DNA of 64,000 nt from Terriglobia bacterium. Its GTDB lineage: Bacteria > Acidobacteriota > Terriglobia > Bryobacterales > Bryobacteraceae. The notes under the pieces were generated by a model. The model searched no databases. It saw only the letters and a list, made by a program, of their open reading frames with translations, and was not told where the DNA came from. The DNA is taken from contig JAJPHN010000015.1 in NCBI GenBank assembly GCA_021325235.1, positions 1 to 64,000 on the forward strand. The letters are read 5' to 3'. Below are positions 2,178 to 8,245 of the stretch, piece by piece (the stretch's first letter is position 1; the number at the start of each line of letters is the position of its first letter). A program made the translations under genes and the position numbers.

Positions 2178-2987
2178 ATGGTCGTTGCAAGCCCACAATG
2201 GAAGACGGAAGATCCGGGCCGGCGACTGCGGCGTATCCGGGAACAATTGCGGCTGCGCTATCGCGATGTGGAAGAGGCGAGCCAGCAGATTGCGCGAAAT
2301 CGAGGCAACCAGGAATTCAGCGTCGGTCTGAGCCGCTTGGCGGATATTGAAAATCGGGGGACGATTCCCTCCCTGTACCGGCTGTATTCACTGTGCGTGA
2401 TTTACGGTTTGAAATTCGAGATGGTGTTGACCTGGTTCGGCATCGATCTGAACGAACTGGCTCTGGATGCGGCGCGGCTTTCGCTTCGGCAGACGCGGGT
2501 AATTGATTTCACAGCGGTGGATTCGGTGCTGCCGGAAGCGCCAATTGAGTTCAGCCGGGACCTCGATTTAACCAAAACGATTTATCTGAATCCTCACATT
2601 CGGCGTTGGGGAAAGCTGCCGCTTTCTGTGCTGGGCGGCTTAAATCTGAAGAAATATCGCTACGCTTTCATCGGAGTGGACGACTGGTTTATGTATCCGC
2701 TTTTACCGCCGGGATCGTTCGTGCAGATCGACGAAACAGAGCGGCATCCGGCGGAAGATGCACCGACCCAGGAACATGAACGGCCAATTTATCTGCTCGA
2801 GCACCGGCAGGGATTTCGCTGCGGCTGGTGCACGGAAACCAGCGGCCATTTGATTGTGCAGCCGCATCCGGAATCGAATCTGCGGGCTGAACTATACCGC
2901 TATCCGGGAGAGGTTGACGTAATCGGGCGGGTGATCGCAGTGGCTAAGCGTCTGGATTTGGCGAAGCGACGCCATACACGTTCCTGA
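2178..2987 (+). CDS. XRE-family regulator with S24-like C-terminal domain
   Basis: The 269-residue protein has an N-terminal helix-turn-helix region (about 12-75, RLRRIREQLRLRYRDVEEAS followed by LSRLADIENRG) like XRE/Cro repressors. The C-terminal third (about 165-260) resembles the S24 LexA/CI fold: PLLPPGSFVQID, a strand containing RPIYLLEHRQG, and EVDVIGRVIAVAKRL. Where S24 proteases have Gly-Asp-Ser-Met, this protein reads DDWFMYP, so the catalytic serine seems absent and self-cleavage is unlikely. Regulatory role and ligand are unknown. The last 44 bp overlap the convergent hypothetical gene. The short 5' region with a perfect palindrome points to self-control. Confidence 0.75.
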   Translation: MVVASPQWKTEDPGRRLRRIREQLRLRYRDVEEASQQIARNRGNQEFSVGLSRLADIENRGTIPSLYRLYSLCVIYGLKFEMVLTWFGIDLNELALDAARLSLRQTRVIDFTAVDSVLPEAPIEFSRDLDLTKTIYLNPHIRRWGKLPLSVLGGLNLKKYRYAFIGVDDWFMYPLLPPGSFVQIDETERHPAEDAPTQEHERPIYLLEHRQGFRCGWCTETSGHLIVQPHPESNLRAELYRYPGEVDVIGRVIAVAKRLDLAKRRHTRS

Positions 2988-3402
2988 GGAGGCCGAGTAT
3001 GGCTTCAAAGTCGGAGGTGTGTTTCTCGCGCTCCGGTCCCTGGATGGAAGCGGGCACGAGATTCTTATAGGGCGTCAGGCGAAGCCAGGCATCGATGAGT
3101 TCGTAGCGATCTACCTGATCAATGCCGGAGATATAAAGTTCGATGTCGGCCTTTTTACGTTCCAGGGGATAGGCGATCCACTCGGTAAAGACCTGCTCAT
3201 GGATGCGGCGGAGGGTGCGGCTGGCATCGAGGGCCCCGGCGATGCTCCCAGTAGCGCCGAAGTGCTCATATCTGCCAGTATCGGGATTACGGAGACCAGC
3301 AAGGTAGACAAGGCGACCGTAAGCGGTATCAATCTGCGCAAGGTCGCGATGACACACTTCAGCGACTTGGTGCTGAGCGTCTGGCGCTTTTCGGATTAGC
3401 AT
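2944..3402 (-). CDS. Hypothetical protein, convergent with the XRE regulator
   Basis: About 152 residues from the ATG at 3402, preceded by ACGGAG as ribosome binding site. The sequence starts MLIRKAPDAQHQVAEV and is soluble, with a central HFGATGSIAGALDAS stretch and mostly helical character. No family is recognised. An upstream extension to 3471 is possible but has no better ribosome site. It ends inside the 3' end of the convergent XRE gene, so their transcripts overlap. The composition looks like a real protein rather than a shadow frame, but no function can be given. Confidence 0.6.
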   Translation of the reverse strand: MLIRKAPDAQHQVAEVCHRDLAQIDTAYGRLVYLAGLRNPDTGRYEHFGATGSIAGALDASRTLRRIHEQVFTEWIAYPLERKKADIELYISGIDQVDRYELIDAWLRLTPYKNLVPASIQGPEREKHTSDFEAILGLLRNVYGVASPNPDA

Positions 3403-3481
3403 CAACTCCGTTTTCCTTACTCTCACACAAATGGAGGTCGGGAGCAAGGGAATCGGTACTACTAGGACCATACGTTCCGTT

Positions 3482-3523
3482 GCCGGAAAACGTGGATAAT
3501 ACTGGCTTTTCCCCGTTTTCGGC
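3482..3523. promoter_or_regulatory. Imperfect hairpin upstream of the repeat-protein gene
   Basis: Arms GCCGGAAAACG (3482-3492) and CGTTTTCGGC (3514-3523) pair over ten positions with one bulged G and a 21-nt loop. It sits about 60 bp before the ATG of the secreted repeat protein and could be an operator, a leader structure or a terminator of earlier transcription. Confidence 0.3.
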
Positions 3524-3581: not shown

Positions 3582-3890
3582 ATGAAAAACACAATACTCG
3601 CCTCCGTAATTGCTTGCACCATGTTTCTGGGTGTGAGTTCGACCAGTTTCGCCGCCTCCTTTGATATTCCCGCTCCGGGTAAGGGTAAAGGCGTCCCGAT
3701 GGCGTATGACATTCCCGCTCCGGGTAAAGGCAAAGGAGTTCCGATGGTCTTCGACATTCCAGCACCCGGGAAGGGCAAAGGTGTCCCGATGGCGTTTGAT
3801 ATTCCTGCGCCTGGACCCGGCCCCCATGTGCCGATGGCCTATGACATTCCGGCACCCGGAAATGGCCCTGGCGTTCCGATGTTGTACTAA
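3582..3890 (+). CDS. Secreted protein of five tandem 15-residue repeats
   Basis: From the ATG at 3582 the product has 102 residues: a signal peptide (lysine, then a hydrophobic core, ending SFA before ASF, residues 1-24) and then nothing but five copies of a 15-residue unit, ending Leu-Tyr. Repeats 1-3 read F/Y-DIPAPGKGKGVPM; repeat 4 has GPGPH and repeat 5 has GNGPG in the variable centre. The start at 3582 is chosen over an upstream one because it places the signal peptide at the N-terminus. No family is known to me. Proline, glycine and lysine dominate, so an extended or disordered extracellular chain or a multi-copy peptide precursor is possible. Two membrane-protein genes follow on the same strand. 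Confidence 0.7.
   Translation: MKNTILASVIACTMFLGVSSTSFAASFDIPAPGKGKGVPMAYDIPAPGKGKGVPMVFDIPAPGKGKGVPMAFDIPAPGPGPHVPMAYDIPAPGNGPGVPMLY
3657..3881 (+). repeat. Five tandem 45-bp coding repeats
   Basis: Units are 3657-3701, 3702-3746, 3747-3791, 3792-3836 and 3837-3881. Repeats 1 and 2 differ at many third codon positions (GAT/GAC, AAG/AAA, GGC/GGA, GTC/GTT) while coding the same DIPAPGKGKGVPM. The array is therefore old, and the peptide rather than the DNA has been conserved. Confidence 0.9.
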
Positions 3891-3968: not shown

Positions 3969-4766
3969 ATGAACTGGACGCAAGTTGCGTCCGGGTTGAG
4001 CGAATTACTCAGCCTGGTGCTCGTTATCCGGCTATTTTCGATGCGGCTCCATTCCGCCTATCGGGTATTCTGTGTCTTCTTATTATTCGAGGTGCTCACG
4101 CAGAGCTTTGTCTTCATCGAACGGTATACTGCGTTGAACGAGCTGCTCGACTACCGTGTCACGTGGCTGGTGGTGCAGGTGATCTCCTGGGTGGTATCGA
4201 TCTGGATGGTGTATGCGCTGCTGCGGGCCATTATGGATAAGCTGCCTGGGATTCTTCGATTTTCACGGCGCGTCTTGAACGTGGCGCTGGTGCTGGCAGT
4301 GGCGGTCAGCGCTGTGAGTGGGGGGCCTGAGTACTGGGCATCGGGCGCGTCGAGCGCCAGTGCACGCCTGAATTACCTGGTGGGGGTGGGCCTGGTTCTT
4401 TCGCGCATGGTGGCGACCATCTGTGTGCTCACGTTGCTGGTGACTTTGCTTTTCATTCTGTGGTTTCCGGTGCGGATGCCGCGGAATCTGGCGATGTTCA
4501 GCGTCGGCTTTGCGGTGTATTTTTCGGCCAAAACCTTTTTGCTGCTATTCCACAATTTCTGGTCTCATCAGAACGCGACGCTGGTAACCGATATTGTGAC
4601 GCTGATACTCAGTGTGTGCCTGCTGTACTGGATTTTGTATCTAAATCCGAGCGGCGAGTTGGTACAGGTCACACTCGGGCACAGCTGGGGACGGGAGAAA
4701 CAGACCGGCCTGCTCAAGGACCTGGAGCACTTAAATGCGGTGCTGGGCCGGGCGGGGCGCGGCTAA
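3969..4766 (+). CDS. Multi-pass membrane protein, unknown function
   Basis: The 265 residues contain about six or seven hydrophobic helices, for example around 10-27, 35-52, 67-86, 100-120, 140-165, 175-195 and 205-225. A short polar tail rich in charged residues follows (GREKQTGLLKDLEHLNAVLG). There is no recognisable catalytic or transporter motif. It lies 78 bp after the repeat protein and 126 bp before another membrane-anchored protein on the same strand, so a shared role is possible but unproven. ATG start at 3969 without a clear ribosome site. Confidence 0.65.
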   Translation: MNWTQVASGLSELLSLVLVIRLFSMRLHSAYRVFCVFLLFEVLTQSFVFIERYTALNELLDYRVTWLVVQVISWVVSIWMVYALLRAIMDKLPGILRFSRRVLNVALVLAVAVSAVSGGPEYWASGASSASARLNYLVGVGLVLSRMVATICVLTLLVTLLFILWFPVRMPRNLAMFSVGFAVYFSAKTFLLLFHNFWSHQNATLVTDIVTLILSVCLLYWILYLNPSGELVQVTLGHSWGREKQTGLLKDLEHLNAVLGRAGRG

Positions 4767-4892: not shown

Positions 4893-5423
4893 TTGACGTT
4901 GGCTCTAGTACTAACGCCGCTATTACTCGTAGGACTTTTGATTGCCCTGTTTGTACCCGTGCTGGTCAAACTGCTCCAGAAGTGCCGCGCACAAGACCTC
5001 AGCTCGGAATGGCTGGACAACTTCTCGGTTGCGTCGTACTACCCGATGGAAGGGCTCCTCAGCAACGAGGATTTCAGCTTCCTGAGCCGCCAGCCGGGTT
5101 TTGATCTCTCACTCTACCGCAAGCTGCGACGCGAGCGGCTGCACATCTTTAAACAGTATCTGAATCGCGCGATTGCCGACTTCCACCGGCTGGACACGAC
5201 CATCAAGCTCCTGGTGGCTTCGTCGCAGGAGGACTGCTCGGATATTGCATCGCGCCTGGTCGGACTGCGGCTGCGGTTTAGCATCGCTGTGCTGCAGGCC
5301 GAGATGAGCTACCGTCTGTGCCTGATTGGCTTCCAGTTTCTTGCCGTGCGGTCGCTGATCGGCCGTATGGAAGAGATGAACGTTCAGCTCAACGCTTTGC
5401 TGGCCGCGCGGGCAGCAGCCTAA
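4893..5423 (+). CDS. Single-span membrane-anchored helical protein
   Basis: Starts with TTG at 4893 behind ACGGAGA, a good ribosome site. The 176 residues have one N-terminal membrane helix (about 4-28, LVLTPLLLVGLLIALFVPVL) and a cytoplasmic, largely alpha-helical remainder (KLRRERLHIFKQYLNRAIAD and similar), without a catalytic motif. A possible promoter precedes it: TTGAAC at 4845-4850 and TACTGT at 4868-4873 with 17 bp between. Function unknown; the gene converges on the SprT-like gene. Confidence 0.6.
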   Translation: MTLALVLTPLLLVGLLIALFVPVLVKLLQKCRAQDLSSEWLDNFSVASYYPMEGLLSNEDFSFLSRQPGFDLSLYRKLRRERLHIFKQYLNRAIADFHRLDTTIKLLVASSQEDCSDIASRLVGLRLRFSIAVLQAEMSYRLCLIGFQFLAVRSLIGRMEEMNVQLNALLAARAAA

Positions 5424-7441: not shown

Positions 7442-8245
7442 ATGCGAAAGTCTTCTCCGGCAATTGATTCGTGTTTTCCGCTGTTACGCAAATTTCTGAC
7501 CCGGACGGCCGTTGCTGCCGCCGGGCTGGCCGTGGGCGTTTCTGCCCAGGCAAGCAGTCTGGTTGTGAACGGGAATTTCCAGCAGCTGCTGAAACCGGGC
7601 GTTGCGTCCGAGTTTGGAAGCCGCTATTCGTCCCAGCAGGTCACCGGATGGACGACAACCGGCTACAACTTCGTTTTCACGCCTGGCTCGGCCGATACGA
7701 CTTACGCGCTTGGGCAATGGGGAAAAGTAGGGCTGTGGGGACCCGGCAACGGATCGAACAACGGGCTTCCCAAGGCCAGCCCCGCGGGCGGGAACTTCAT
7801 CGCAATGGACGGCGGCTCCGGGCAAGGCGCGCTGCTGCAGACGATCAGCGGACTCACGCCCGGTAAGGCCACCGATGTCTCGTTCTGGTGGGCTGGCGCA
7901 CAGCAGTTTGGCTATACCGGCGGGACGACCGAACAGTTTCGCGTGAGTCTGGGCTCGGTATCGCAGTTGACGCCGGTGCTGCACAATTCGAGCCACGGTT
8001 TCACCGGCTGGAAGCACGACGTGATGACGTTTATTCCGACCAGCAGCACGGAGGTGCTGTCGTTTTTCGCGATTGGAACGCCGGCGGGCGTGCCTCCGTT
8101 TTCGCTGCTCGATGGTGTCACGGTGAACGGGTCGGCACCGGAACCGGCTACCTGGACGCTCGGTTTGACCTGTCTGCTGGGCTTGACGGTGCTGGGCTGG
8201 CGCCGGAAACGGGCACTGCAGACAGCGCGCATTTCGAAGACGTAA
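7442..8245 (+). CDS. PEP-CTERM sorting-domain secreted protein
   Basis: 267 residues: an N-terminal signal region (hydrophobic AVAAAGLAVGVSAQA, residues about 23-37), then a beta-rich extracellular domain beginning SLVVNGNFQQ, as in DUF642-like proteins. The C-terminal sorting signal (PEP at about 233-235) has a hydrophobic helix TLGLTCLLGLTVLGW and the basic stop RRKR. PEP-CTERM proteins are processed by an exosortase and usually linked to exopolysaccharide or biofilm. No exosortase is in this window. The promoter directly upstream suggests a single-gene unit. Confidence 0.85.
   Translation: MRKSSPAIDSCFPLLRKFLTRTAVAAAGLAVGVSAQASSLVVNGNFQQLLKPGVASEFGSRYSSQQVTGWTTTGYNFVFTPGSADTTYALGQWGKVGLWGPGNGSNNGLPKASPAGGNFIAMDGGSGQGALLQTISGLTPGKATDVSFWWAGAQQFGYTGGTTEQFRVSLGSVSQLTPVLHNSSHGFTGWKHDVMTFIPTSSTEVLSFFAIGTPAGVPPFSLLDGVTVNGSAPEPATWTLGLTCLLGLTVLGWRRKRALQTARISKT

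Follow-up and report, generated by a model that had tools for sequence, protein, structure and literature searches.

Yeast alpha-factor precursors are secreted proteins that hold several copies of a short peptide, KEX2 sites are dibasic pairs, and in the ComD system the peptide gene is linked to a membrane receptor gene. The fungal KEX2-processed repeat proteins (KEPs; PMC9769878) are secreted precursors of this kind that are cut at KEX2 sites and whose functions are largely unknown. RRNPPA systems combine a small secreted peptide gene with a helix-turn-helix regulator nearby (PMC9765709), and ComD and HPK10 are multi-helix membrane receptors of peptide pheromones (PMC4873836). Among the titles and abstract openings of open-licence articles in PMC, no description was found of a peptide combined with a seven-helix protein of the type considered here, nor of acidobacterial peptide signalling.

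The locus considered here lies in a window of 64,000 nucleotides (positions 1-64,000, forward strand, of contig JAJPHN010000015.1, assembly GCA_021325235.1) from a Terriglobia bacterium of the Bryobacteraceae. Its predicted secreted precursor resembles KEPs in carrying several copies of a short peptide; unlike KEPs, the units lack dibasic pairs, tandem genes are a further source of copies, and a gene for a seven-helix protein is linked. The peptide gene lies near a helix-turn-helix regulator as in RRNPPA systems, from which the locus differs in that no TPR receptor domain was found among the Pfam matches of the regulator's homologues, a stand-alone seven-helix protein is linked and the host is acidobacterial. 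In contrast to receptors of the ComD, HPK10 and AgrC type, the seven-helix protein carries a short C-terminal helix and lacks a kinase domain. Its seven helices and predicted N-out, C-in orientation would match those of G protein-coupled receptors (GPCRs) and microbial rhodopsins, yet neither structure nor sequence comparison with solved proteins gave a significant match.

A predicted precursor with five repeated units

The precursor gene is composed as follows:

3582-3890, plus strand: multi-copy secreted peptide precursor (predicted), 102 residues; an open reading frame with counterparts at the equivalent position in relatives
3582-3656, plus strand: putative signal peptide MKNTILASVIACTMFLGVSSTSFAA, from composition, cleavage site placed by eye; relatives start similarly
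3657-3701, plus strand: unit 1 SFDIPAPGKGKGVPM
3702-3746, plus strand: unit 2 AYDIPAPGKGKGVPM
3747-3791, plus strand: unit 3 VFDIPAPGKGKGVPM
3792-3836, plus strand: unit 4 AFDIPAPGPGPHVPM
3837-3881, plus strand: unit 5 AYDIPAPGNGPGVPM, followed by LY and the stop codon

A 25-residue start, resembling a signal peptide by composition only (N-terminal Lys, hydrophobic core, Phe-Ala-Ala), precedes five 15-residue units with the consensus [S/A/V][F/Y]DIPAPG-x-G-x-x-VPM and a final Leu-Tyr. An earlier note on this DNA had described this layout, and it is borne out by the open reading frame and by Tandem Repeats Finder, which calls a repeat of 45-bp period at 3658-3881 (5.0 copies, score 147) and, in a shorter call, at 3660-3805 (3.2 copies, score 187). 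Cysteine is absent after the signal peptide. None of the pairs KR, RR, KK and RK occurs within or between the five units, and no cleavage motif common to all units was seen.

The same note held that the copies differ mainly at synonymous sites. Across the five units, variable columns fall at third codon positions 12 times, at second positions 5 times and at first positions 4 times; for units 1-3 alone the figures are 11, 2 and 1. The claim stands in full for units 1-3 alone (pairwise pN 0.06, pS 0.53-0.79), as units 4 and 5 carry real replacements, GPGPH and GNGPG taking the place of the GKGKG stretch, and pairs that include them give pN 0.11-0.26 and pS 0.47-0.79. Equal synonymous and non-synonymous change had been named as the observation that would overturn it; pN lies below pS in all 10 unit pairs, 4 of which have reached saturation in synonymous distance. 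These counts indicate that the peptide is kept while its DNA drifts and that the units are not recent duplicates.

Searches with the precursor sequence returned, from its own genome, itself and two matches at E 0.12-0.22 only, and from other relatives weak low-complexity matches (best E 0.0016), none of them convincing. A pattern search of genome contigs confirmed none of 44 pattern stretches as relatives. The window precursor matched no Pfam family at E 1 and nothing above cut-off in NCBIfam, and six relatives likewise gave nothing above cut-off in NCBIfam. The search of the repeat that the earlier note had proposed thus found no convincing sequence relative in its own or related genomes and no known Pfam or NCBIfam family. 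The note's remark that no family with this unit was known is true of the letters; a family nonetheless exists, and was found through gene order.

Peptide genes at the equivalent position in related genomes

The precursor gene sits between a minus-strand gene for a 175-residue protein and the gene for a membrane protein of 265 residues. The surrounding genes are:

2178-2987, plus strand: helix-turn-helix (XRE-type) regulator, C-terminal part S24/LexA-like by eye
2944-3471, minus strand: 175-residue protein divergent from the peptide gene, no Pfam family found
3969-4766, plus strand: seven-helix membrane protein, 265 residues, putative peptide sensor, from family profile, model, loop charges and conservation
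4893-5423, plus strand: 176-residue protein with an N-terminal helix and a helical domain, putative transducer, start codon uncertain

Within the genus, the seven-helix protein was matched in 15 of 17 genomes searched, at 16 loci altogether. The gap upstream of its gene holds a small predicted secreted protein with its own proline-rich unit at all 16 (15 by search, and L035, with a non-ATG start, by reading the gap). Genus precursors carry one to nine unit copies: eight of a KFEPPIPEPGNPYPPTMA-type unit in one, four of FNPPLPHPGSPYPPLLIG in another and nine of a DGPLPDPNSPNPPYA-type unit in a third, the others having single cores. Across these loci the unit is replaced from one species to the next as position and design stay.

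In the family as a whole, the seven-helix profile matches 194 of 237 genomes and 67 of 76 genera, mostly once. Upstream DNA was examined at 80 loci outside the genus (three from one genome), which represent the upper part of the match list and not a random sample. A precursor was accepted by a fixed criterion, namely a same-strand open reading frame of 30-290 residues within 800 bp upstream with a basic residue near its start, a hydrophobic core and a Pro/Cys core pattern, and a locus was assessable with at least 400 bp of upstream DNA. A precursor was found at 59 of 76 assessable loci, as against 0 of 76 on the opposite strand, 2 of 78 downstream on the same strand, 0 of 78 downstream on the opposite strand and 1 of 77 further downstream. 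Reading the gaps adds five (L080, L086, L111, L113, L120), which brings the count to 64 of 76.

The remaining 12 loci have no peptide gene beside the seven-helix gene. In 11 of them the upstream neighbours differ, and in the other (L150) the contig ends 470 bp upstream; at three with different neighbours (L094, L132, L153) the seven-helix gene follows what we take, by eye, to be a VWA-like protein. The 175-residue protein gene was found in ten of these 12 genomes, with one or more peptide genes beside it in seven, a cut contig in one and none seen in two. A search was also made with the regulator, which is better conserved: in the best 80 of its 205 matches, whose carriers include Bryobacteraceae, Candidatus Solibacter, Candidatus Sulfopaludibacter and KBS 96, a peptide was flagged at 66 loci, although two of those flagged (L271, L278) are clearly something other than peptides, and no fewer than three of those unflagged (L208, L218, L247) match contigs in which a peptide had previously been seen. 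Many of these records overlap genomes already counted with the seven-helix profile. Gene order in the window's family is conserved over housekeeping genes too, so that adjacency within this family alone proves little.

The same pair of genes in a second family

The seven-helix profile, run against 297 genomes of the phylum at E 1e-6, gave six matches, two in the window's family and four weak ones in another family (f11). Secreted peptide genes lie upstream in three of the four f11 loci (3, 4 and 1 genes), and the fourth (L171) gave no result. An f11 query found the seven-helix protein in 149 of 200 f11 genomes and in 61 of 79 genera. Among the 30 best f11 loci, which are better-scoring matches and not random draws, all 28 that could be assessed have one to six peptide genes upstream, as in an example with six genes ending in IVPIPVCPPDDPNACGM; the other two have too little upstream DNA, and one of these (L288) shows the end of a peptide gene. 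Eight more distant f11 loci comprise four clear cases (L323, L328, L329, L330), two doubtful ones (L326, L327) and two with none.

The seven-helix profiles of the two families align with a probability of 98.2. The regulator and 175-residue protein profiles match only 1 of 17 f11 loci (9-12.5 kb), and the 176-residue protein profile matches none of the 17. The peptide and seven-helix genes thus keep together although their surroundings change, and they are likely to be the core pair.

In one f11 precursor (L313) a single protein contains four cores AMPIPTCSPGAKCH in tandem; here the multi-core form probably arose independently.

Core sequences, copy number and selection

The relatives take three forms: single-core proteins, which consist of a signal peptide and a short tail and total about 36-40 residues, multi-core proteins, and several tandem genes. 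Copy number is therefore raised either by repeats inside one precursor (3, 5 or 9, for example) or by tandem genes. In 11 codon-aligned tandem arrays (nine of the window's family and two of f11, with L142 and L148 left out), pN/pS is 0.041 for the mature part and 0.268 for the signal peptide, and mature pN is zero in eight; the pairs from any one array depend on each other, and the mature boundaries were set by hand. These values replace a gapless count from the C-terminus (mature 0.089, signal peptide 0.435) that could mis-pair codons.

Since relatives are single-core, multi-core or arrays of genes with near-identical mature ends, the functional unit would be one core. The suggestion of the earlier note that the protein is a precursor cut into short peptides gains strong support from these single-core, multi-core and tandem-gene relatives, and that the gene encodes a multi-copy secreted peptide precursor is, on the sequence comparisons, very probable. 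Its alternative suggestion, a proline-rich low-complexity surface or matrix chain in which the repeats act as spacers, would fit the Pro/Gly/Lys content and the variation of repeat number between species. Single-core relatives of only about 36-40 residues and the strong purifying selection that tandem genes show in their cores make that reading hardly credible, because a structural repeat protein is not expected to work as one unit. A leader peptide that serves only to regulate the seven-helix gene was also considered, and is rejected by selection on the mature end, by the tandem genes and by loci at which the seven-helix gene is elsewhere. The related species present a multi-copy precursor in evolution at one equivalent locus, as single core, tandem cores and tandem genes.

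Most first precursors outside the genus, 60 of 71, have a CxPC core, of which NPLPTCNPCPFVR and DIPQPECWPC are examples. Such cores could bind metal, which would make the product a metal- or redox-active periplasmic peptide and the seven-helix protein a device for taking up or sensing the metal, and one f11 peptide gave a weak, below-cut-off match to a bufferin metallophore model (E 0.038). We consider this improbable, as the window precursor is Cys-free beyond its signal peptide and 8 of 15 genus precursors lack Cys beyond residue 22, with position, palindrome and partner unchanged.

The seven-helix protein and its neighbours

The model of the 265-residue protein (pLDDT 85.3, pTM 0.80) has seven long helices and a C-terminal helix. 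Over 98 homologues the net charge of loops 1, 3 and 5 and the tail is +1.25, +0.94, +1.41 and +1.13, compared with +0.19, -0.23 and +0.12 for loops 2, 4 and 6, from which an N-out, C-in orientation is predicted. With an inside/outside split set by hand, the predicted cytoplasmic half is the more conserved (0.506 vs 0.313, p 3e-15), a property that is not unique to receptors. The best Foldseek matches in the PDB include rhodopsins and GPCRs and are not significant (best E 0.08). VIA-align superposed the model on ADGRV1 over 196 residues with Z 13.1 and rmsd 4.2, though helical bundles can reach a Z of about 13 by chance. No PDB chain matched the profile by sequence at E 1, no Pfam family was found for the window protein, and 23 homologues gave one match only, to DUF2678. 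The model suggests a receptor-like arrangement. Pfam searches of seven window proteins revealed neither an exporter nor a kinase.

Of 80 loci, 70 have the 176-residue protein detected close to the seven-helix gene; as these include several whose upstream neighbours differ, it may be the transducer. Its model (pLDDT 92.6) matched no solved fold (best Foldseek E 1.4), and its profile found no PDB sequence at E 1. Many homologues of the 175-residue protein have about 152 residues, so its real start is probably further inside. Beyond the 176-residue protein gene lies a gene for an SprT-like metallopeptidase in 46 of 80 loci; nothing ties it to the peptide.

A palindrome upstream and a candidate regulator

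One further feature precedes the precursor gene:

3474-3491, plus strand: putative operator, the palindrome GTTCCGTTGCCGGAAAAC, 108 bp ahead of the start codon

In the window's family the consensus is GTTC(C/T)G-N4-(C/T)(A/G)GAAAA. Of 86 loci scanned, 76 have the palindrome 72-147 bp (mostly 105-115 bp) ahead of the first peptide gene, a count made on the loci that defined the consensus. Shuffled sequence reaches the score in 0.4 percent, and a downstream control in 0 of 66. A further 20 loci had peptide strings that were new to the analysis (L267 and L281 excluded), and 13 of them reach a score of 11/13 or more. In 13 tandem arrays it stands before the first gene in eight and before a later gene in none. 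The f11 palindrome differs, being a 14-bp GTTACYTYRGTAAC in 24 of 27 loci (shuffled sequence, 4 percent). In many f11 loci (L284-L307) a second recurring element around TGGACTTA, noticed by eye, follows the palindrome and is perhaps part of the promoter.

The exact pattern occurs at 34 sites in 16 of the 17 genomes of the genus. The peptide locus accounts for 15 of these sites (in 15 genomes) and 19 lie elsewhere, as against 6 for a reversed control. Reading 16 of the 19 showed no recognisable peptide gene behind any of them; some fall inside other open reading frames. The idea of an operator private to the peptide gene is weakened by these off-locus sites, and the palindrome may have other targets. 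Three genus genomes (L180, L190, L200) have in common an extra copy beside a similar open reading frame, possibly a second target or a coding coincidence.

The nearby helix-turn-helix regulator is the natural candidate for binding the palindrome GTTCYGNNNNYRGAAAA in the window's family. Thirty homologues searched against Pfam at E 0.1 matched HTH_19 (29), HTH_31 (28), HTH_3 (18) and Peptidase_S24 (1), no TPR domain being among the matches; its profile found nothing better than E 0.02 among PDB sequences. In the C-terminal part, relatives have WSMYP, at what we take to be the position of the LexA serine. The window protein has WFMYP there and CxWC is nearly invariant, so peptidase activity is unlikely in the regulator.

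Sites of 14 bp with this geometry are common targets of XRE regulators. In an RRNPPA-like scheme the peptide would be re-imported and would act on this regulator, leaving the seven-helix protein as an importer or processing factor, and regulator, 175-residue protein gene, palindrome and peptide do stay together where the seven-helix gene is elsewhere. The absence of the TPR domain from those Pfam matches and the near absence of the regulator from the 17 f11 loci leave this scheme distinctly unlikely.

A proposed signal and sensor

The sequences themselves show how the precursor is built, that its core is under selection, that it occurs throughout the family, that it is linked to the seven-helix gene in two families whose neighbourhoods differ, and that palindromes are present. 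From these we infer secretion, cleavage of the units, binding, signalling and which protein binds the palindrome. The precursor would be exported by the Sec route, and the mature product, five near-copies of a 15-residue peptide, would probably be cut apart outside the cytoplasm. Outside the cell it would serve as a signal specific to the species. The neighbouring seven-helix protein would sense this signal and could relay it by way of its C-terminal helix and conserved cytoplasmic loops, in the window's family perhaps to the 176-residue membrane-anchored protein. The palindrome 108 bp upstream would probably be the point at which expression is controlled, and the nearby helix-turn-helix protein perhaps exerts that control. 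On balance, we favour a signal precursor sensed by the seven-helix protein, by a narrow lead over its not being so. The wider proposal, that two large Terriglobia families use hypervariable, species-specific peptides read by a kinase-free, GPCR-like seven-helix receptor, is put forward tentatively, as possible rather than probable.

The earlier note had left open whether the peptides are signals or antimicrobials. Bacteriocin immunity usually involves a linked membrane protein, bacteriocin loci are usually patchy, and Acidobacteriota are among the commonest soil bacteria. A proline-rich, bacteriocin-like product, with the seven-helix protein conferring immunity or self-protection, would account for multi-copy precursors, which raise yield, and for units that differ strongly between species. 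It sits poorly with a seven-helix protein found in 194 of 237 genomes, mostly once and at a stable place, and with the 49 of 71 precursors outside the genus whose last 18 residues have no net positive charge; we judge it unlikely. A signal fits better because of that widespread partner and because the peptide gene keeps its upstream palindrome.

Correlated change between peptide and seven-helix protein was examined at 50 loci. Peptide distance showed no partial correlation with the outer half given the inner half (r 0.026, p 0.34), and the reverse, inner given outer, gave 0.391 (p 0.002). The housekeeping neighbours FabH and SprT correlate with the peptide as well or better, at 0.498 and 0.468 on fewer pairs, vs 0.447 for the seven-helix protein. 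Both results count against the proposed sensor, the test for specific ligand-receptor coevolution being negative. The partial correlation of the seven-helix protein given the regulator (0.330, p 0.002) is not used as support, because the regulator (0.270, p 0.004) and the 175-residue protein (0.282, p 0.006) are likewise positive given the seven-helix protein.

The wider proposal, if true, would amount to a form of bacterial peptide signalling that differs in design from the quorum-sensing systems known so far. If the preferred reading, a signal with a seven-helix sensor, is true, two large families have in common a module that sequence search has overlooked as the peptide varies by species. 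At least one carrier of the module, KBS 96, is probably a cultured strain, as its record bears no metagenome label, and this would make the idea open to direct testing with synthetic peptides.

Two minor observations concern the window's own genome. Another contig (L173) encodes a second, divergent seven-helix paralogue (E 9.4e-21), upstream of which lies a small secreted Pro/Ser/Gly-rich open reading frame. At 7442-8245 of the window an open reading frame ends in what, by eye, is presumably a PEP-CTERM-like sorting signal, PEPATWTLGLTCLLGLTVLGWRRKR.
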